64,000 nucleotides of DNA, taken from a virus. Numbering within the stretch: the stretch's first letter is position 1; each line of letters starts with the position of its first letter. A program made the position numbers and the translations under genes. The stretch spans positions 1-64,000 of the IMG/VR virus record IMGVR_UViG_3300021963_006848; one strand, 5' to 3'. The notes under the pieces are model-generated. The model was not told the origin of the DNA. It ran no database searches and saw only the letters and a program-made list of their open reading frames with translations. Positions 16,791 to 24,404 of the stretch are shown piece by piece.

Positions 16791-16826
16791 ACACTTAAGA
16801 TACGAAAAAATATAATTAGAAACAAC
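16789..16826 (-). promoter_or_regulatory. Promoter ending the modification operon
   Basis: Minus strand: GTTG, 20 nt ending TTCG, then TATCTTAAG, directly against the 35-residue frame. The -33 element overlaps the stop codon of the sulfotransferase-like gene. There is no CTGCGT block. Confidence 0.65.
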
Positions 16827-17398
16827 TAAATTAGAGTCTTTTTTACCCCTAAATTATCTTTCCTGTACTTGTTATTCTTATCTAATAAAAAACGGTAATT
16901 TTTGCCTGTAATTCCAACATACTTATCTATTGTGTCTAAATCTTCTCCAGTTATATAAACTTTTTCATAAGTTGTTTTAAAATCATCAATACCTTCTATC
17001 TCTTTATATCCATCTTGAAACGATTCTAAATGCTTTTGTATATCTCCTTCCGGAACTTGTTTATCAGTATACATATAAGGTTCGTGCCAATGTTCTTGTG
17101 AATTTTCAAGAGCAGCATATGCAAAACTTTGTGCCTGCTCTAATGTATTTTCTCTCCAGAGTATAATAACTTTATCAAACTTATCTTTCAATTCTTTATA
17201 CCAATAACCTCCTTGTCCCCATATTGATTTTACAACTACATTATCTCTTTCAAAAATATCGTAGTCAGTTAAAGTTGACTGCCAGAATCGGGAATCGTGG
17301 AAAGGCTCTATTGCTACTAAGTAGTTTAAACTTTCTGCCAAGTAATAAGCTAGGTTTGTTGAACCTGTTCTAGGAAGAGCATAAATTAGTATTCGCAT
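16826..17398 (-). CDS. Sulfotransferase-like protein
   Basis: A 190-residue protein beginning with the PAPS-binding loop of sulfotransferases, LPRTGSTNLA (residues 8-17), and containing VIILWREN near residue 78, a plausible 3'-phosphate-binding strand. Sulfotransferases move sulfate from PAPS to hydroxyl or amine groups on proteins, sugars or small molecules. An APS kinase, which makes PAPS, is in the same operon (25377-25814). It ends KKTLI, the C-terminal residues shared by five other proteins here. It is the last gene of the run. Confidence 0.65.
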   Translation of the reverse strand: MRILIYALPRTGSTNLAYYLAESLNYLVAIEPFHDSRFWQSTLTDYDIFERDNVVVKSIWGQGGYWYKELKDKFDKVIILWRENTLEQAQSFAYAALENSQEHWHEPYMYTDKQVPEGDIQKHLESFQDGYKEIEGIDDFKTTYEKVYITGEDLDTIDKYVGITGKNYRFLLDKNNKYRKDNLGVKKTLI

Positions 17399-17772
17399 AT
17401 TGACTTTCCGTAGTTTTTATAATCTCTATTTACAAAGTTAGATTTAAAATACTCTCCTTTGGGCCGTTCTAACTTATATTCTACTACATGGTAACTTACC
17501 GTAATTTCATCTCCTCTATCAATAGGTCTATTGGCATATAAGTTATACCCATTCTCAGTTTTAACTAGCGTAGTATTAGGACGTTCACTATGGTTACAAA
17601 ATCTACCTAACGGATCACTTTCCCATAAAGTTGCTGTGAGCTTTCTTCCTAGTTTACTAGCTCTAGATTCAACATACTCACCTATAAATTCTTCTTCTTC
17701 AAAATAAGCATTTGAAAAAACTCCAACTCCTTTTATTGGTAATACTATAAGAGTAAAATTAGCTTCTATCAT
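17386..17772 (-). CDS. SET-domain protein
   Basis: A 128-residue protein with GVFSNAYFEEEEFIGEYVE near the N-terminus and GRFCNHSERPNTT followed by ANRPIDRGDEITVSY. These are the NHS and Y-motif signatures of SET-domain lysine methyltransferases. Length is close to the minimal SET fold. It probably methylates a lysine of a protein, perhaps another product of this operon, but no target is visible. Overlaps its neighbours by 4-13 nt. Confidence 0.75.
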   Translation of the reverse strand: MIEANFTLIVLPIKGVGVFSNAYFEEEEFIGEYVESRASKLGRKLTATLWESDPLGRFCNHSERPNTTLVKTENGYNLYANRPIDRGDEITVSYHVVEYKLERPKGEYFKSNFVNRDYKNYGKSICEY

Positions 17773-19289
17773 AGTACCTGAATATTATCTATAGAGTTAT
17801 CGTAAATGGTTTTTAAATTTATTTTTAGCTTTTCTCTAAGAGGAGCTAATTTAATATCTAAGTTAAGATCATTATTCTCTTCTATAAGTAATGTATTATT
17901 TAATACCCTTACACCAGCTCCTACTAGGTACCAACTGTACATATCAAATACGTCTGATTTACCTAATACAGATAAGTCCCCATTTTTTGGCGGCCTTATG
18001 CTCCATAACTTTAATAACGCTTTCAGTTTTTCTGGAGTCTCTGTTCTAGTTTTATATGTTCTCCAAAATTCTGTATCTTTTCTTTGAGTCATATAATGGT
18101 AATATAAGAATGCAACACATTCATCATTAAGTTCTCCTATAAGGTTATTGTAGATATCTCGAATACTTTGGTTATCTACTTTTAATGAACTAGGATCTAA
18201 GTTAAGGAGTTGCATTATTACAAGCATTACAGAAGTAGCTTCTAGAGGTTCTGTAAAACCAGCTGATAAGCCGATTGCAATACAATTCTTATGCCATACG
18301 TTTTTAAATCTTCCAGCATTAAATTTAAAGACTTTTGTACTTTCAATTGGGTGCCCTAAAAACTCTTCTACTTCTGCTCTAGCCTCTTGTTCGTTTATAA
18401 ACTTATCATCAAAAATATATCCACACCCCCATCTACCTTTCACAGGAATTTGCCACATCCAGCCATACTTCATAGCTATAGCTCTAGTCTCAGGTCTTAT
18501 AATTTTTTCAGTTTGAGGTAAGAAGAATGGAATAGCAGAATTTACTGTTAGTTGTTTATCGTAAGATACCCACTTTGAATTGTATGCATTACCTATTAAA
18601 AGTCTTTGAAATCCGCTACAATCAAAAATAAAATCACATTCGAAAAATCTTCCATCTTGTATAGATATACCTGTAATCATTTCGGATTCATTCATAAATA
18701 CTTTATCAAATTCTCCATCAACACATATAACACCTCTAGCTTCAGCAACTGAGCGTAAGTACTTAGCAACTTTTCTGGCATTAAAATGAAAAGAATATCC
18801 GACTGAGTTGTTAACTTTGTTACCTTCCTTATAAAAAGGACTTTTCTTTTCTTTAATCAACTTACTTGCAGGTATTACTTCATCTAAATCTTCTTTATTT
18901 GCTAAAGCATTTAGTATAAAGAAAGCACTATTAGTATTAGGTACTCCTGTGTTTGAATTTATATTAAGGTTATTAAGTTGTTTAAAATCTATTGACGAAC
19001 CGGGAGGTGCAGCAAATGGATGTAAGTAGTTTGTTCCATCTCCATTCCAATTTTCAAAATTTATTCCTAGTTTAAAAGTAGCGTCACATTCTTTTTTAAA
19101 CTCACCTAAGTTTATATTTAAACTTTGTAAAAATGCTGGTAATAAAGGTACTGATCCTTCTCCGGCACCTAAGATTCCTACCTTACTGCTTTCTATCAAA
19201 ACTACTCTGGTCTTTTCATAAAGCTGTTTTACTTGTAAAGCTGTTAACCACCCTGCTGTTCCTCCTCCTAATATAACTATATTTCTCAT
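17769..19289 (-). CDS. Flavin-dependent tryptophan halogenase
   Basis: A 506-residue protein, normal length for the family. It has the FAD-binding GGGTAGW (residues 8-14), the catalytic lysine in ATFKLGINFE (Lys73), WMWQIP (about 280), the WxWxIP signature, and the catalytic glutamate in GFTEPLEAT (about 345). All active-site features appear intact. These enzymes chlorinate or brominate tryptophan, free or in peptides, using FADH2 from a separate reductase; none is seen here. Related genes are known in cyanophages with unknown role. Confidence 0.9.
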   Translation of the reverse strand: MRNIVILGGGTAGWLTALQVKQLYEKTRVVLIESSKVGILGAGEGSVPLLPAFLQSLNINLGEFKKECDATFKLGINFENWNGDGTNYLHPFAAPPGSSIDFKQLNNLNINSNTGVPNTNSAFFILNALANKEDLDEVIPASKLIKEKKSPFYKEGNKVNNSVGYSFHFNARKVAKYLRSVAEARGVICVDGEFDKVFMNESEMITGISIQDGRFFECDFIFDCSGFQRLLIGNAYNSKWVSYDKQLTVNSAIPFFLPQTEKIIRPETRAIAMKYGWMWQIPVKGRWGCGYIFDDKFINEQEARAEVEEFLGHPIESTKVFKFNAGRFKNVWHKNCIAIGLSAGFTEPLEATSVMLVIMQLLNLDPSSLKVDNQSIRDIYNNLIGELNDECVAFLYYHYMTQRKDTEFWRTYKTRTETPEKLKALLKLWSIRPPKNGDLSVLGKSDVFDMYSWYLVGAGVRVLNNTLLIEENNDLNLDIKLAPLREKLKINLKTIYDNSIDNIQVL

Positions 19290-19768
19290 ATTAATGTTTT
19301 CTGTTCTTTATGAAGATAAGAATTTTCTGCTAAAAATGCAACTAAAGTATACCTTTGTCCTTCTATTACCGGAAGAACTCTATGTCTTAGAGTAGGTCCA
19401 AATATCATAGCCGTATTTTCTTCTGGTAGTATCTTTGATATTTCTTGATCTATATACTCAAATTCACCACCCGTGAAGTTTTGATTTAAAAAGCAAACTA
19501 AGTTTTCTTTATACTTAATATGATGACGGTGGTAGTTTTCTGTCATCCTTATGTTTTTATCTATTCGTTGAATTCTTAATATATCTATTTCCCCTACTAG
19601 ATTGTGTTTTCTAAATAAGCTTTCTACTTCTACATACAACTCCCCAGTAATATTACAGCCTCTGAAATTATAGATATCATCTTCTACTTTTCTATATTTA
19701 CAGATCTCAGCATATTCTAGAAGATTTCTGTGGAGATCTTTTGGTAAGAAGTTCTTGATAGTTTTCAT
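19286..19768 (-). CDS. Fe(II)/2-oxoglutarate oxygenase-like protein
   Basis: A 160-residue protein. NYHRHHIKYKENLVC..FLN...TGGEFEY and later RHRVLPVIEGQRYTLVAF fit the 2-oxoglutarate-dependent dioxygenase fold of prolyl-hydroxylase type: a metal-binding His, a GGEF strand, a second His and an Arg. It likely hydroxylates a peptide or small molecule. It ends QKTLI. Its start overlaps the halogenase stop by 4 nt. Confidence 0.68.
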   Translation of the reverse strand: MKTIKNFLPKDLHRNLLEYAEICKYRKVEDDIYNFRGCNITGELYVEVESLFRKHNLVGEIDILRIQRIDKNIRMTENYHRHHIKYKENLVCFLNQNFTGGEFEYIDQEISKILPEENTAMIFGPTLRHRVLPVIEGQRYTLVAFLAENSYLHKEQKTLI

Positions 19769-20472
19769 TAAATTAAAGTACTGCTCTTCTTATAAGGAGG
19801 TTCTATAAAATTAAAATAAAAGTCCTCTAAACTACTATCTATTGTTAAGTTACATTCTATATTCTTTGTATGGTTTGTTATAATAAAGTCAAAAGGCTTA
19901 CCTGTAATTTCCTTGACGTACTTTTCTATCTTACTATTTTCTTTTAGGTTAAAGTATAAGATACTTTCATCATTCTCATGCCACCTAGAAGGAGCTGTCA
20001 TTACAGATGAAAAAATCATGTAAGTATTCTTACTATAGGGTAAACCTGTAGGTATTAGTCTTTTGAAGAAATTACTACATTTTTCTATATCCTGTAAATT
20101 AGAACTAAATCCAATTTCGTTCTCCCAAGCGTTAATAAAGTCTAATGTAGTAGTGCTTGTTAAGATTTGAGCAGCTGTTACGTTATATTCAGCAATAAAC
20201 TTTATTACATATTTCCATGCAGATAAGAACCTATCTAAAGGATCTCTATTAATAGCTATTACAGGATAATCATATCCAAAATGTTCTCTTAGTTTTGAAA
20301 TTCGTTCATGTGCATGTCTACGAGGTTCTAAACCTCTGTCCGCCTGTCTTTGTGCTAGTACATTGTTTGTAGGGTACTTAATAGAGAACCCTGCTAGAAA
20401 ACAAGAACGTTCAAATGCTACTGTAGCTGTTCTAGGTATCTTAAGAAACAAAAACTTGTTATCTACTAACAT
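19768..20472 (-). CDS. Sulfotransferase-like protein
   Basis: A 234-residue protein starting with a PAPS-loop-like segment, FLKIPRTATVAFERS (residues 9-23), and VIAINRDPLDRFLSAWKY near residue 83, the 3'-phosphate-binding motif of sulfotransferases. The family resemblance is to the Sulfotransfer_2 and tyrosyl or carbohydrate types. It ends SSTLI. The start overlaps the stop of the next gene at 19768 by one base. Confidence 0.68.
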   Translation of the reverse strand: MLVDNKFLFLKIPRTATVAFERSCFLAGFSIKYPTNNVLAQRQADRGLEPRRHAHERISKLREHFGYDYPVIAINRDPLDRFLSAWKYVIKFIAEYNVTAAQILTSTTTLDFINAWENEIGFSSNLQDIEKCSNFFKRLIPTGLPYSKNTYMIFSSVMTAPSRWHENDESILYFNLKENSKIEKYVKEITGKPFDFIITNHTKNIECNLTIDSSLEDFYFNFIEPPYKKSSTLI

Positions 20473-20604: not shown

Positions 20605-22488
20605 TTATTGTAATTTTTTTGCCATGTTATGAACTAGTATTCCTTCTGCTATATAATTCTGAGTATCTTCAACTGAGATATTATATACTAATCCTTTATA
20701 ATCCTCAAATTCTATCGTCTCGATTAGAACCCAGTTCCCCATAAGGTTAATAAAGTACTTATCGGTTTCTAATTTTTCGACTACTAACTCTTTGTGAAAA
20801 TCTTTATCAGCTTCTGGATCTACTGCTGCCCATTTGATATTACCTTCGAAATCTTTAATAGCAAATGGATGTCCTACTGTAGCTTTAGTTCTTATTCCGT
20901 TTATAACTACAAGCTTATCATTGTAGTCTGATTTCCATATACCTTTTACCTTCTTTGTAACTATATCATTAGTATTAAAGTCAAAAGATTGTACTATATC
21001 TCCAACTTCTATATCTTTGATTTCTTTTTCACCATCTGCTGTAAATACTACAGCGTCGCCTACAAAGCATTGTGCTTGACAAGTCCAGCAAGAATTATAA
21101 CAACTCCACCAGCCGCAATTATATCCACTACACCAGCATGGGTTATGTTGTACTAATGCTATATTGGTTGATTCATCTAGAATAGATAAGAAAATATCTT
21201 GTTCTTCTACATCGAGTTCATAAATTAATTTGGTATCGTAAACCGCATCAAGAGCTACTATTTCTTTCTTTAAAAGCTCATTAGTAGCAACATCTAATAG
21301 AATTACCTTATCTCCTAATTCTACTTGACTAAGAGACTTAAACCTAGTTACTGTACTTCCACTAACTTCTGTATAAAAAGTAGATCTAGTAGAATCATCC
21401 CAAGTAGTTCCATCTTCTAAAGTAATATTCAAATAAACTGTTTCTAAACTAGAGCTGATAAATCCTACAACGTTAGCGGAGTTAACCTGTAATGAGCTCT
21501 CCATTTCTGCAAAAGAAGAAGAAAAAGCTAGGACATCAACAGAACCAGTAGGTAGGTTACTAAATTGAACTGATTTTACTACTGTTCCTTCTTCTACATC
21601 TTGGATAGATATATACTCTCCTGTAGGTGTTACAATTTTTGTATCTTCATCTACGTGGTATACGTTCTTCTGATTATCTGTAGAGAGTTTAGAAATCCAT
21701 TTAATTCTAGATTTATTAGTAAGTGCAGTTGTTCCTGCTTGTAATTCATCGGGCCAAATATCTAAACTATAAGGTGATGTTTGGTGATAAGAACCAAGGT
21801 GTAGTGTATCTAAAGTAGAACCATAAACTAAATCTAAACTTCTAATAATAGAATAACGTCCTTGTATAACATTATTTTCTGAATTGATAAACTCTTGTAT
21901 AAAATATGGTGCTGTAGTATTAGCCACTAACGTGTCATATTCAGTTTGATTTGTTATAGTATGTACTTGAGGGTATACTTTTGCATCATACTGAGGCTGT
22001 ACTGATTTAACTACAACGTTGGGTGCTTTAGTAGCATCAAATCCTGCCGGAATAGCGTACGATTGGCTTTGTATAAGTTCTTGTAAGTTTCCTTTATCTG
22101 CACAATACACATCATCTATTAAAGCTGTACTATCGAATGCCTGTCTAAGAATAAACTTCGTGGGAGAATCTTCTACATAAGGTACTGTGGTAGCATAAGT
22201 ACTTACTTGATAAGGAGTGTATGCAATACCTAAGCTCTCACAAATACTCTGTAGCTTTGTACCTAAAGAAAGATTAGCTCTAAACTTAGGATCTGTTACT
22301 AACTGTTGATCATTAAAGATATAAACTAACTCTGCTATAGAATTTGATTGAAGTAATGCTTCAAGCCCAGAAAAATCTAAATGCGGGATCATACTTTGGT
22401 AGATTCCGGCACTTGTATTTAATTCAACAAGCCTTGCGTTTCCATCATCATCAAGCAAGAAGTCACTTCCTATTAAAACAGCTTTCAT
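20605..22488 (-). CDS. ATP-grasp-like protein with two Hint domains flanking a Cys/Trp-rich peptide
   Basis: A 627-residue protein. Residues 1-275 look ATP-grasp-like: GSDFLLDDDGNARLVELNT at the N-terminus is a typical ATP-grasp metal-binding motif, out of its usual order, and YFIQEFINSEN (195-205) a nucleotide-binding one. Hint domain 1 (about 278-449) ends in QHN but has His278 in place of the intein nucleophile and lacks the block-B histidine (STRST). Hint domain 2 (474-621) has Cys474, TVGH (537-540) and HN (620-621), followed by Met, so it cannot splice. Between them, 450-473 holds six Cys, four Trp and two Tyr. Predicted result: the peptide is released or ligated by the flanking Hint domains. 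Confidence 0.75.
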   Translation of the reverse strand: MKAVLIGSDFLLDDDGNARLVELNTSAGIYQSMIPHLDFSGLEALLQSNSIAELVYIFNDQQLVTDPKFRANLSLGTKLQSICESLGIAYTPYQVSTYATTVPYVEDSPTKFILRQAFDSTALIDDVYCADKGNLQELIQSQSYAIPAGFDATKAPNVVVKSVQPQYDAKVYPQVHTITNQTEYDTLVANTTAPYFIQEFINSENNVIQGRYSIIRSLDLVYGSTLDTLHLGSYHQTSPYSLDIWPDELQAGTTALTNKSRIKWISKLSTDNQKNVYHVDEDTKIVTPTGEYISIQDVEEGTVVKSVQFSNLPTGSVDVLAFSSSFAEMESSLQVNSANVVGFISSSLETVYLNITLEDGTTWDDSTRSTFYTEVSGSTVTRFKSLSQVELGDKVILLDVATNELLKKEIVALDAVYDTKLIYELDVEEQDIFLSILDESTNIALVQHNPCWCSGYNCGWWSCYNSCWTCQAQCFVGDAVVFTADGEKEIKDIEVGDIVQSFDFNTNDIVTKKVKGIWKSDYNDKLVVINGIRTKATVGHPFAIKDFEGNIKWAAVDPEADKDFHKELVVEKLETDKYFINLMGNWVLIETIEFEDYKGLVYNISVEDTQNYIAEGILVHNMAKKLQ

Positions 22489-22538: not shown

Positions 22539-22994
22539 TTATATAAGAGTCTTTGTACTTTTAATTCCGCTTCTTCTAAAATAGCTTATAAATAAGTACT
22601 GTGTTCCTTCTTCCACGCTTTCTAACTCTAGATCTATTCCGAAATCAAAGTAAACTGCTTTATTAGCTTCTGGTACAATTATGCTTTCTTTATATCTTAA
22701 TCCACCCCCAGAATAGTTTTCGTTAATAAAATAGATAATAAGTGCGTAATCTAGATCCTTAAATTGCTTATATATAGTCTTTATACCTTTACTTCTCTTA
22801 CTGAAATACATTTTATCACATTGGTAAGGAATACCAACTCCTAAGAACATGTTTTCAAAATCTATTGCAATCTGATGAGATGGGTATGTAAACCTATAAT
22901 AATTACCATCCGTATCATCTAATGCATACTTACCTTCAATATCGATAAGTCTATTTCGAAAATAATCAGGTAGTATGTTATCGAAGATTATCAT
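22539..22994 (-). CDS. Fe(II)/2-oxoglutarate oxygenase-like protein
   Basis: A 151-residue protein whose LIIYFINENYSGGGLRY...VYFDFG order matches the strand layout of the compact 2-oxoglutarate dioxygenases, though the metal-binding His-x-Asp is less clear than in its neighbours. It may be an inactive or divergent copy. It ends TKTLI with a stop codon and codons different from those of the other proteins sharing that ending. It lies 50 nt upstream of the Hint gene. Confidence 0.5.
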   Translation of the reverse strand: MIIFDNILPDYFRNRLIDIEGKYALDDTDGNYYRFTYPSHQIAIDFENMFLGVGIPYQCDKMYFSKRSKGIKTIYKQFKDLDYALIIYFINENYSGGGLRYKESIIVPEANKAVYFDFGIDLELESVEEGTQYLFISYFRRSGIKSTKTLI

Positions 22995-23587
22995 CTAATC
23001 TCTGTTATATTAAAGCTAATGTTTGAACAAATAGCAATTCTAGTTCCTTCTGAATTAGGAGATAAGTTAGGTTTATGTTCTACATCTCCTTTAAAAAATA
23101 TAAAATCTCCTTCGTTTGGCTTAGTTGCATATACCCTACCGTCTTTATCTCTAAGTAACAATGCACCCTCTTCTCCTTGTAAATCATAAGGTACTTGAAC
23201 ATAAAAGCAATAAGTCCAGTCTGTAAGAATAGGTGCATTAATCTTTGTATCCGGAAAGTTAATAGCAGCTGTATGCATATGAAAGCCGTTATCTGGATCT
23301 TTAGAGGTTTTATCTTGTATGTAACTCCATGTTTTACCTACCCAAATTGGTTTAGACTTCTCAGGTATATTGGATAAGCCTTTAGCAATCTTCTTACCGT
23401 ACTTAATAACATGGTCTATTTCTGGGCTATGAACTTTAATCTCTGTTGTATTAAAGTCTGTAGTACCTAATAGCCACTTATTCTGCTTTACTCTATATAT
23501 AATTTCATCTTGTCCGTAGGTCCAATCATATTGAGCTTTATAGATGGTGAGTGTATCACTTACTCTAAATTCTTTTACAGGTATCAT
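22991..23587 (-). CDS. 2-oxoglutarate oxygenase-like protein
   Basis: A 198-residue protein with HMHTAAINFPD near residue 102, VYATKPNEGDFIFFKGDVEHKP near 160 and TRIAICSN near the end, which reads as His...Asp/Glu...His...Arg of the 2-oxoglutarate dioxygenase fold. It lacks the TLI ending seen in its neighbours (ends ITEIR). It overlaps both neighbours by 4 nt. It likely hydroxylates an unknown acceptor. Confidence 0.55.
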   Translation of the reverse strand: MIPVKEFRVSDTLTIYKAQYDWTYGQDEIIYRVKQNKWLLGTTDFNTTEIKVHSPEIDHVIKYGKKIAKGLSNIPEKSKPIWVGKTWSYIQDKTSKDPDNGFHMHTAAINFPDTKINAPILTDWTYCFYVQVPYDLQGEEGALLLRDKDGRVYATKPNEGDFIFFKGDVEHKPNLSPNSEGTRIAICSNISFNITEIR

Positions 23588-24120
23588 ATAAGTGTCTTTG
23601 ATTCTTTTTGCTTAAATTCTATAAAGACTGTAAATGTAAGTCTTCCGTCTTTAATAGAAGTCCCAAACGGCTCTTGTACTGCATGGTTGATATTAGCAGG
23701 ATAGCATACAAATCTATTAAAAACATTTTCTACTTCGTCAATCTGAATATAGTTGTCATCATAGAAAGAAGTTCCGGAATTAGGTACTTGAAACGGAGCT
23801 AGATAAATTACTCCTGCGTAGTCTTTCCTACGGTCTTTATGTATACGGTTCTTACTGTACCCTTTCTCTTTTGTAGTATCTTCTAATGTATAATGGAAAT
23901 AACAATCATAAGCTGCTGTTGCAAACTTAGAATCTCTTTTACTTAATTCAGATTTTACAAGATTGGTTACTTTTAATGTAAGTTCGTTTTGCTTTAAACA
24001 TCTAAAACCCTTCCATCCTTGTTCTTCAAACGGAGGAGTATATTCTAACTCTAAAGCTTGATCTCTGATATCCCAGACGTCTTTTAAAAAATCATCTATC
24101 TGAATTAAACCTTGTATCAT
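23584..24120 (-). CDS. 2-oxoglutarate oxygenase-like protein
   Basis: A 178-residue protein with RIHKDRRKDYAGVIYLAPF near residue 93, GTSFYDD, NINHAVQEPFG and a final GRLTFTVFIEF. This gives the His-x-Asp, distal His and Arg set of Fe(II)/2-oxoglutarate dioxygenases, with normal family length. It ends SKTLI. It overlaps neighbours by 4 nt and is probably co-translated. Confidence 0.65.
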   Translation of the reverse strand: MIQGLIQIDDFLKDVWDIRDQALELEYTPPFEEQGWKGFRCLKQNELTLKVTNLVKSELSKRDSKFATAAYDCYFHYTLEDTTKEKGYSKNRIHKDRRKDYAGVIYLAPFQVPNSGTSFYDDNYIQIDEVENVFNRFVCYPANINHAVQEPFGTSIKDGRLTFTVFIEFKQKESKTLI

Positions 24121-24404
24121 ATTAATGTTTTATCTTGTTTAATTACTGAGCTTTCACTGAGGTATTTATCTTCAACTGGTAGCCATTTATGAAGAGGACA
24201 GCCATCATAGAGACGGCTGAATACCTTTCCTTCAAGTAAGCAAGAACATTCACCACAGTACTCTGACCATTTACGGTTATTAAATAGAGTCTCTCTCTTA
24301 GAACATTGTTCACATATTTCATAACGTTCTTGAGCTAGTTTCTTTTGACTCTCTTTTGGATTTATTTTAGTAATCCAGGCAGAGATAATCTCTTTCATAT
24401 CCAT
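24117..24404 (-). CDS. Zinc-binding protein, paralogue of 12355-12588
   Basis: A 95-residue protein with CEQC, CGEC and a final C, in the same order as the protein at 12355-12588 (INP...QKKLA..RYEIC..C...C..CLLEGKVF). This copy has an extra C-terminal tail of about 20 residues that ends DKTLI, like the nearby enzymes. The function is unknown; an operon-specific zinc protein with the shared tail suggests it works with these enzymes. Confidence 0.62.
   Translation of the reverse strand: MDMKEIISAWITKINPKESQKKLAQERYEICEQCSKRETLFNNRKWSEYCGECSCLLEGKVFSRLYDGCPLHKWLPVEDKYLSESSVIKQDKTLI

Follow-up and report, generated by a model that had tools for sequence, protein, structure and literature searches.

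What is made by a phage gene that encodes a short peptide rich in cysteine and tryptophan between two Hint domains, and by what chemistry could that peptide be released? We addressed this question in the window, a stretch of 64,000 nucleotides that is part of a 97-kb virus record, in which the minus-strand ORF at 20605–22488 encodes a protein of 627 amino acids. Translation confirmed the original prediction that residues 450–473, with six Cys, four Trp, and two Tyr, lie exactly between H448-N449 at the end of one Hint domain (Hint1) and C474-F475 at the start of another (Hint2). The layout of the protein and the relevant neighboring genes are listed in table 1; the wider system around the Hint gene is more unusual than the original prediction implied.

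Table 1. Features of the Hint protein and of neighboring genes in the window
Feature	Position	Strand	Basis
Sulfotransferase-like protein, C-terminus GVKKTLI (tag)	16826..17398	-	Clusters with a protein weakly matching sulfotransferase families
Flavin-dependent Trp-halogenase-type enzyme	17769..19289	-	PF04820, 5.6e-107
2OG-Fe(II) oxygenase-like protein, C-terminus KEQKTLI (tag)	19286..19768	-	PHROG 61, 5e-12
Sulfotransferase, C-terminus KSSTLI (tag)	19768..20472	-	PF03567, 9e-5; PHROG 3347
Lys-containing C-terminal tail MAKKLQ plus stop	20605..20625	-	Similar tails after Hint2 in relatives
Hint2, residues 474–621, intact Hint/intein-like	20626..21069	-	PF14890, TIGR01445, TIGR01443; Foldseek 6y75
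Cys/Trp/Tyr-rich peptide, residues 450–473 (PCWCSGYNCGWWSCYNSCWTCQAQ)	21070..21141	-	Translation; homologous peptides
Hint1, residues 278–449, degenerate Hint	21142..21657	-	hhalign to Hint2; Foldseek; invariant H448/N449
N-terminal domain, residues 1–277, ATP-grasp-like, probably circularly permuted	21658..22488	-	Weak RimK match; invariant residues
2OG-oxygenase-like protein, C-terminus KSTKTLI (tag)	22539..22994	-	PF13640, weak (0.077)
2OG-Fe(II) oxygenase-like protein, this copy untagged	22991..23587	-	PHROG 81, 3.1e-6; cluster 4, 27/38 tagged
DUF6445 protein, C-terminus ESKTLI (tag)	23584..24120	-	PF20043, 3.6e-10
Small Cys-rich zinc-ribbon-like protein, C-terminus KQDKTLI (tag)	24117..24404	-	PHROG 13558; homologue in 54/71 loci

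Domains of the Hint protein

No Pfam model matched Hint1, and its identity was assessed by comparison of profiles and structures. Aligned with hhalign, the Hint1 profile matched that of Hint2 with a probability of 96.6% (E = 4.9e-10). In addition, an AlphaFold2 model of a relative, L030, that consists only of N-domain, Hint1, and peptide (pLDDT 84) had the Hedgehog autoprocessing domain 1at0, the BIL2 domain 6y75, and the RecA intein 2in0 among its best Foldseek matches in the PDB, with TM-scores of 0.71–0.79 by target length. Because of this profile alignment and these structural matches of a model in which Hint1 is the only Hint domain, Hint1 is predicted to be a genuine Hint fold, and the alternative that it is not a Hint domain was rejected. 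Both flanks of the peptide are thus Hint folds, as had been claimed, on the evidence of Pfam for Hint2 and of profile and structure comparison for Hint1.

Hint1 is nevertheless degenerate. Alignments and homologues agreed with the original prediction that it has lost the N-terminal nucleophile and the block-B His but kept its terminal HN: position 1 is His278 in the window and His or another residue elsewhere, and the block-B His is replaced. In 45–50 diverse homologues, H448, N449, D393, and D431 were invariant, and the positions of Hint1 conserved at or near totality are only H448-N449, two Asp, and one Gly; D431 aligns with the block-F His of the KlbA intein, a position at which Asp is invariant in Hint1. 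Of the features of a functional intein or BIL domain, Hint1 therefore has the fold and the C-terminal HN and lacks the N-terminal nucleophile and the block-B His, and on this sequence it could perform at most the last step of intein cleavage, Asn cyclization. The residue that follows HN varies widely among relatives (S, P, G, A, V, T, Q, N, F, E, or I), which fits a cut site rather than a contact within the fold. This +1 residue is Pro450 in the window; the other members that have both the Cys peptide and Hint2 show Pro or Val there. Pro is restricted to members with Hint2 (the window clade, L064, and L009, which has a short segment in place of the peptide), and Ser or Thr is restricted to relatives that have no Hint2. 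With Pro at this position, as in the window and its subgroup, Asn cyclization may be slower.

Hint2 appears intact. It matched the Pfam model Intein_splicing (PF14890) at 1.3e-12 and the NCBIfam models of the N-terminal and C-terminal intein regions (TIGR01445 and TIGR01443), and T537, H540, H620, and N621 were invariant in an alignment of four sequences (A1). These matches and the sequence itself upheld the claim that the domain keeps Cys474, TVGH, and HN, with Met622 after it; Phe, Asn, or Lys takes this +1 position in relatives, and among these it is never a nucleophile. The top PDB match of Hint2 in Foldseek was 6y75, the BIL2 domain of Tetrahymena BUBL1 (E = 1.3e-11, 27% identity), and 2lwy was also matched. 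With Cys at position 1, TxxH in block B, HN, and a non-nucleophilic +1 residue, Hint2 has the sequence features of class A BIL domains such as 2LWY, which are cleaving Hint domains that likewise have HN and no nucleophile at +1. Because the +1 nucleophile is absent, no splicing is expected of Hint2, and judged by its motifs it should instead cleave or transfer at Cys474. The protein as a whole differs from class A BIL systems in its fixed fusion to an ATP-grasp-like domain and in Hint1, which without Cys1 and block-B His could at most cleave at its C-terminus. The expectation that only cuts on the peptide side of each domain are chemically favored was upheld.

The N-domain resembles an ATP-grasp enzyme weakly. 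Its first residues (1–31; 27–31 in members) matched positions 142–171 of the 188 in the RimK ATP-grasp profile, with E values of 0.012–0.025 in three members, short of the Pfam cut-off and in permuted order. D9, E22, N24, R115, K161, and R216 were invariant in 45–50 homologues, and no PDB fold matched the N-domain among the 50 best matches listed for the L030 model. We regard the N-domain as a putative circularly permuted ATP-grasp domain, with candidate roles in Mg and ATP binding for D9, E22-x-N24, K161, and R216. ATP-grasp enzymes couple carboxylates to amines.

Relatives, peptide variation, and the second Hint domain

Alignment-guided scans of viral contigs yielded a family of about 70 loci, all on metagenomic phage contigs; tblastn detected no homologues of the N-domain or Hint1 in 50,697 phage records and no family homologues in the genome contig collection. 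The constants of the family are the ATP-grasp-like N-domain and Hint1 with its invariant HN, accompanied in most members by the Cys-framework peptide. The dominant architecture, of about 495 residues, consists of the N-domain, Hint1 ending in HN, and the Cys-rich peptide as the C-terminus, and such a free peptide without a second Hint domain was found in about 50 loci (37 of the 55 distinct sequences in the tree). The peptide is followed by Hint2 in the window and eight others and by a peptidase-S74-like chaperone in L071–L073 and L075. In L009 and L077, a short segment that does not show the usual framework precedes Hint2; in L009 this segment is seven residues long, has no Cys, and is still bordered by HN and Cys. 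The S74 domain occurs without the peptide in L019, and the peptide is entirely absent from L017, L018, and L020. The S74-like intramolecular chaperone that takes the place of Hint2 at the C-terminus of L019, L071–L073, and L075 is also a link to tail-fiber maturation.

Recurrence in relatives argues against a chance Cys pattern in the window protein. A chance cluster was rejected because 43 distinct homologous peptides share a nearly fixed pattern, with six Cys in 37 of them, eight in five, and nine in one, and with C-x-C-x4-C-x3-C-x4-C-x2-C as the commonest spacing. The original prediction would have been weakened by homologues with variable cysteines and without the HN and Cys borders; the homologue search instead found that framework and borders recur in all close relatives with Hint2. 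Over 96 sequence pairs, Cys was identical in 591 of 592 comparisons, and the residues at other positions were identical in 1000 of 1864 (54%). The pN was 0.257 in the peptide, about twice the 0.13 of Hint1, and pN/pS was below 1, a rough ratio because the pS of the peptide is near saturation. We read this pattern as that of a conserved scaffold whose surface changes fast, and the protein shows the conserved leader and variable core of RiPP precursors. Two extra Cys (in CWCC and CGxxCC) occurred together in six of six cases (L024, L027, L036, L049, L058, and L062), and this pairing in the eight-Cys variants suggests disulfides or thioether cross-links. A pattern scan for the peptide in DNA gave at least 46 in-frame matches, all in the Hint family among the matches listed; occurrence beyond the family was rejected, as the remaining matches listed were short or out-of-frame chance stretches.

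All 33 free-ended peptides, those without Hint2, contain a single Lys within their last four residues as well as a motif of CG, a small set of residues, and then an aromatic residue, and they finish in a stretch that is often rich in Gly or Pro. Lys also recurs in the tails after Hint2 in relatives (FAKKLA, MAKKFQ, FEKKA, KKF, and KK). Because a Lys-containing tail comes after Hint2, this domain seems to be a BIL-type insertion that separates the peptide from the Lys tail. On the maximum-likelihood tree of the N-domain plus Hint1, the state of peptide plus Hint2 required at least three changes. In addition, Hint2 of the window clade shared only about 30% identity with the Hint2 of L009, the nearest relative outside the clade, and L009 Hint2 was 53–55% identical to Hint2 of L041, L064, and L078. 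The tree changes and these identities across clades indicate that Hint2 is, as far as the sequences tell, an optional and exchangeable module. Hint2-like domains of Vibrio, Mycobacterium, and other phages sit in unrelated proteins, for example helicases and terminases.

Tagged enzymes around the Hint gene

The carrier is probably a phage of flavobacteria: the DNA polymerase of the window shared 74% identity with its counterpart in Flavobacterium phage immuto (NC_055915), and gene order was partly common to both. The stretch at about 11.7–27.7 kb of the window, which includes the Hint gene, had hardly any equivalent at the syntenic position in immuto, where other small genes come after the DUF932 gene. 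Because of this near absence, we consider the island a likely accessory cassette.

Around the Hint gene (about 4 kb, and a wider stretch for the window locus), the neighbors in 71 loci comprised two clusters of 2OG oxygenases (58 and 48 loci), the zinc-ribbon-like protein (54), sulfotransferase-type proteins (50 and 48), the Trp-halogenase-type flavoprotein (33), and radical SAM proteins (19). A fiber-like gene family (cluster 13, assigned by eye) was near the Hint gene in 11 loci. The halogenase was found in 22 of 40 whole records and not in the other 18, some of which may be fragments and which include long peptide-bearing ones, and it was present in L019 and L077, from which the usual peptide is absent; a strict link between halogenase and peptide was thus not supported. 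The window halogenase carries the WxWxIP motif. It belongs to the family of the phage Trp halogenases (VirX1 of cyanophage Syn10, HTVC008M, and P-SSM2), with 39% to HTVC008M, and like these it is accompanied by 2OG oxygenases. Unlike the window, HTVC008M and P-SSM2 showed no detectable Hint protein of this family, and the neighbors checked there had no tag.

The window halogenase also gave weak NCBIfam matches, below cut-offs, to QhpG (2.6e-7) and LodB (1.6e-5). QhpG dihydroxylates a Trp of a peptide already cross-linked by a radical SAM enzyme (PMC7876137), and the parallel with the window halogenase is no more than suggestive. Resembling RiPP systems and CTQ maturation (QhpC, QhpD, and QhpG), the family has modification genes beside the peptide, namely those for a flavin Trp enzyme, a twitch radical SAM protein, and 2OG oxygenases. 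The radical SAM protein is a feature of some relatives' loci, for example L024 (6231–7304), and one example matched the twitch-domain family at 6.8e-18, below the family cut-off.

The island enzymes are of types that modify proteins or sugars, and many of them, although unrelated, end in (K/N)(T/S)(L/I)(I/L/M), also written (K/N)(T/S)LI. This C-terminal tag was found in 252 of 657 same-strand neighbor ORFs; in five genomes it occurred in 30 of 105 ORFs within 8 kb of the Hint gene and in 0 of 171 beyond 12 kb; and it occurred in 149 of 493 ORFs in the family contigs listed by a pattern scan versus 0 of 541 in unrelated control contigs, counts that are not independent since the loci share ancestry. 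A DNA signal, such as a gene overlap or promoter motif, was rejected as its origin: the codons vary, those for Ser, Thr, and Leu being of many kinds, and an ATGA end was found in just 61 of 194 cases. Because the codons vary, the tag appears to be a protein motif. Homologues of some of the island enzymes in HTVC008M and P-SSM2 do not have it, and no tag was seen nearby in the peptide-less genomes G039 and G035. Enzymes of peptide-less loci carry looser forms (for example KKII and KNLI); the association with the peptide is thus weaker than it seemed at first sight, and the tag goes with the island, not strictly with the peptide.

Release of the peptide and competing explanations

Based on the motifs and models described above, we tentatively propose, with a confidence that falls just short of an even chance, that the gene encodes a self-processing precursor that releases a ribosomally made, tailored Cys-framework peptide by Asn cyclization. 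A cut by Hint1 at 449|450 would free the peptide at its N-terminus. Most relatives would need no further cut, since their protein already ends with the peptide; in the window subgroup, Hint2 would cut or transfer at Cys474 via a thioester, giving a linear peptide of 24 residues. Before release, the halogenase-type flavoprotein, 2OG oxygenases, and sulfotransferases, joined in relatives by the twitch radical SAM protein, might modify the Trp, Tyr, and Cys or other residues of the peptide, and the common C-terminal tag might bring these enzymes to one partner, perhaps the Hint protein; it is from proximity that we infer both the action on the peptide and the recruitment. As in RiPP precursors fused to a maturase or leader, a constant framework and a variable core lie beside modification genes; unlike in RiPP systems, release is proposed to occur by a Hint domain and not a protease, and modification of the peptide is here putative. 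The system matched none of the known RiPP families.

A fuller picture is a phage peptide factory, in which a precursor with its own ATP-grasp-like enzyme and self-cutting Hint is served by tag-docked modifying enzymes, and a hypervariable, decorated Cys/Trp-rich peptide is freed during infection; we regard this elaboration as speculative and rather unlikely as a whole. We know of no phage system of this kind, and our search found no published texts that combine ATP-grasp and Hint domains in phages. Should release and modification both take place, phages would make their own tailored peptides, with a Hint domain doing the work of a protease; in some relatives these peptides would plausibly be halogenated or sulfated, and they would, if real, represent a new type of modified peptide from phages. 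Such a peptide would also propose a substrate for the Trp-halogenase-type enzymes of marine phages, for which we know of no natural targets, and the locus would have revealed a short C-terminal tag by which enzymes of no common origin are grouped. Against the precursor, the penultimate His and the Asn could be conserved for structure; against tailoring, phage sulfotransferases and 2OG oxygenases could target glycans or virion proteins instead.

The main rival, which we judge possible but on the whole unlikely, is that Hint1 is a dead structural domain and that the peptide stays attached as a metal-binding or disulfide tip for adhesion or assembly, for example of a virion protein, with Hint2 or S74 trimming what comes after the tip in the manner of tail-protein maturation modules. 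S74 chaperones occur in tail fibers and spikes, and their presence at the same place in some relatives, typical of tail proteins, counts against the precursor. The loss of Cys1 and the block-B His from Hint1, the exchangeability of the C-terminal module (none, Hint2, or S74, the S74 members leaving room for a tip), the nearby fiber-like genes, and a variable surface on a fixed framework, which would also suit a receptor-binding tip, are in line with this rival. A mere linker would not need the HN, however, and HN is invariant even in the peptide-less L017, L018, and L020, whose proteins stop five residues later; likewise, the N-domain is enzyme-like, with invariant putative Mg and ATP residues. 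Nor did AlphaFold2 fold the peptide onto Hint1: it was predicted to be disordered in both models, that of the window protein (pLDDT < 50 at residues 453–472) and that of L030.

Conjugation as in ciliate BUBL proteins is an improbable alternative to the self-processing precursor. BIL2 of Tetrahymena BUBL1 delivers a ubiquitin-like domain in the form of an isopeptide (PMC8616854), and Hint2 might similarly pass the C-terminus of the peptide from its thioester, with no need for ATP, to an amine on some other protein or molecule. The ciliate BIL domains (6Y75/6TMM) are the nearest solved structures to Hint2 and share its fold, Cys1, block-B His, HN, and missing +1 nucleophile, and in both systems the payload adjoins such domains. 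The payload here is not ubiquitin-like but a Cys/Trp-rich peptide of 24 residues, the upstream Hint is degenerate, the protein is phage-encoded, and Hint2 is optional; its absence from most members implies that conjugation by Hint2 is not the general function.

Head-to-tail cyclization by the joint action of the two Hint domains, a natural counterpart of SICLOPPS (engineered split-intein peptide cyclization), seems less probable again. The claim that the gene has the arrangement used to make cyclic peptides held for the domain order in the window and its subgroup, where the peptide has the C-terminal end of one Hint before it and the N-terminal end of another after it, and a freed N-terminus could possibly still aminolyse the Hint2 thioester. 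The cyclization itself fared worse, because SICLOPPS-type chemistry requires a +1 nucleophile where the window has Pro and no Cys, Ser, or Thr, each Hint domain is complete and not a split half, and most relatives have no second Hint. Finally, a phage protein-tagging system, in which the ATP-grasp-like domain would join the freed peptide or some other group onto the C-termini of tagged enzymes, is very improbable: in five genomes the tag was confined to the vicinity of the Hint gene and ATP-grasp chemistry joins carboxylates to amines, but the ATP-grasp assignment is weak, we know of no acceptor, and the tag is equally readable as a simple docking motif. Apart from these readings, L078 and L080 have no Cys-rich peptide and carry three Hint domains in tandem, with few residues between them.
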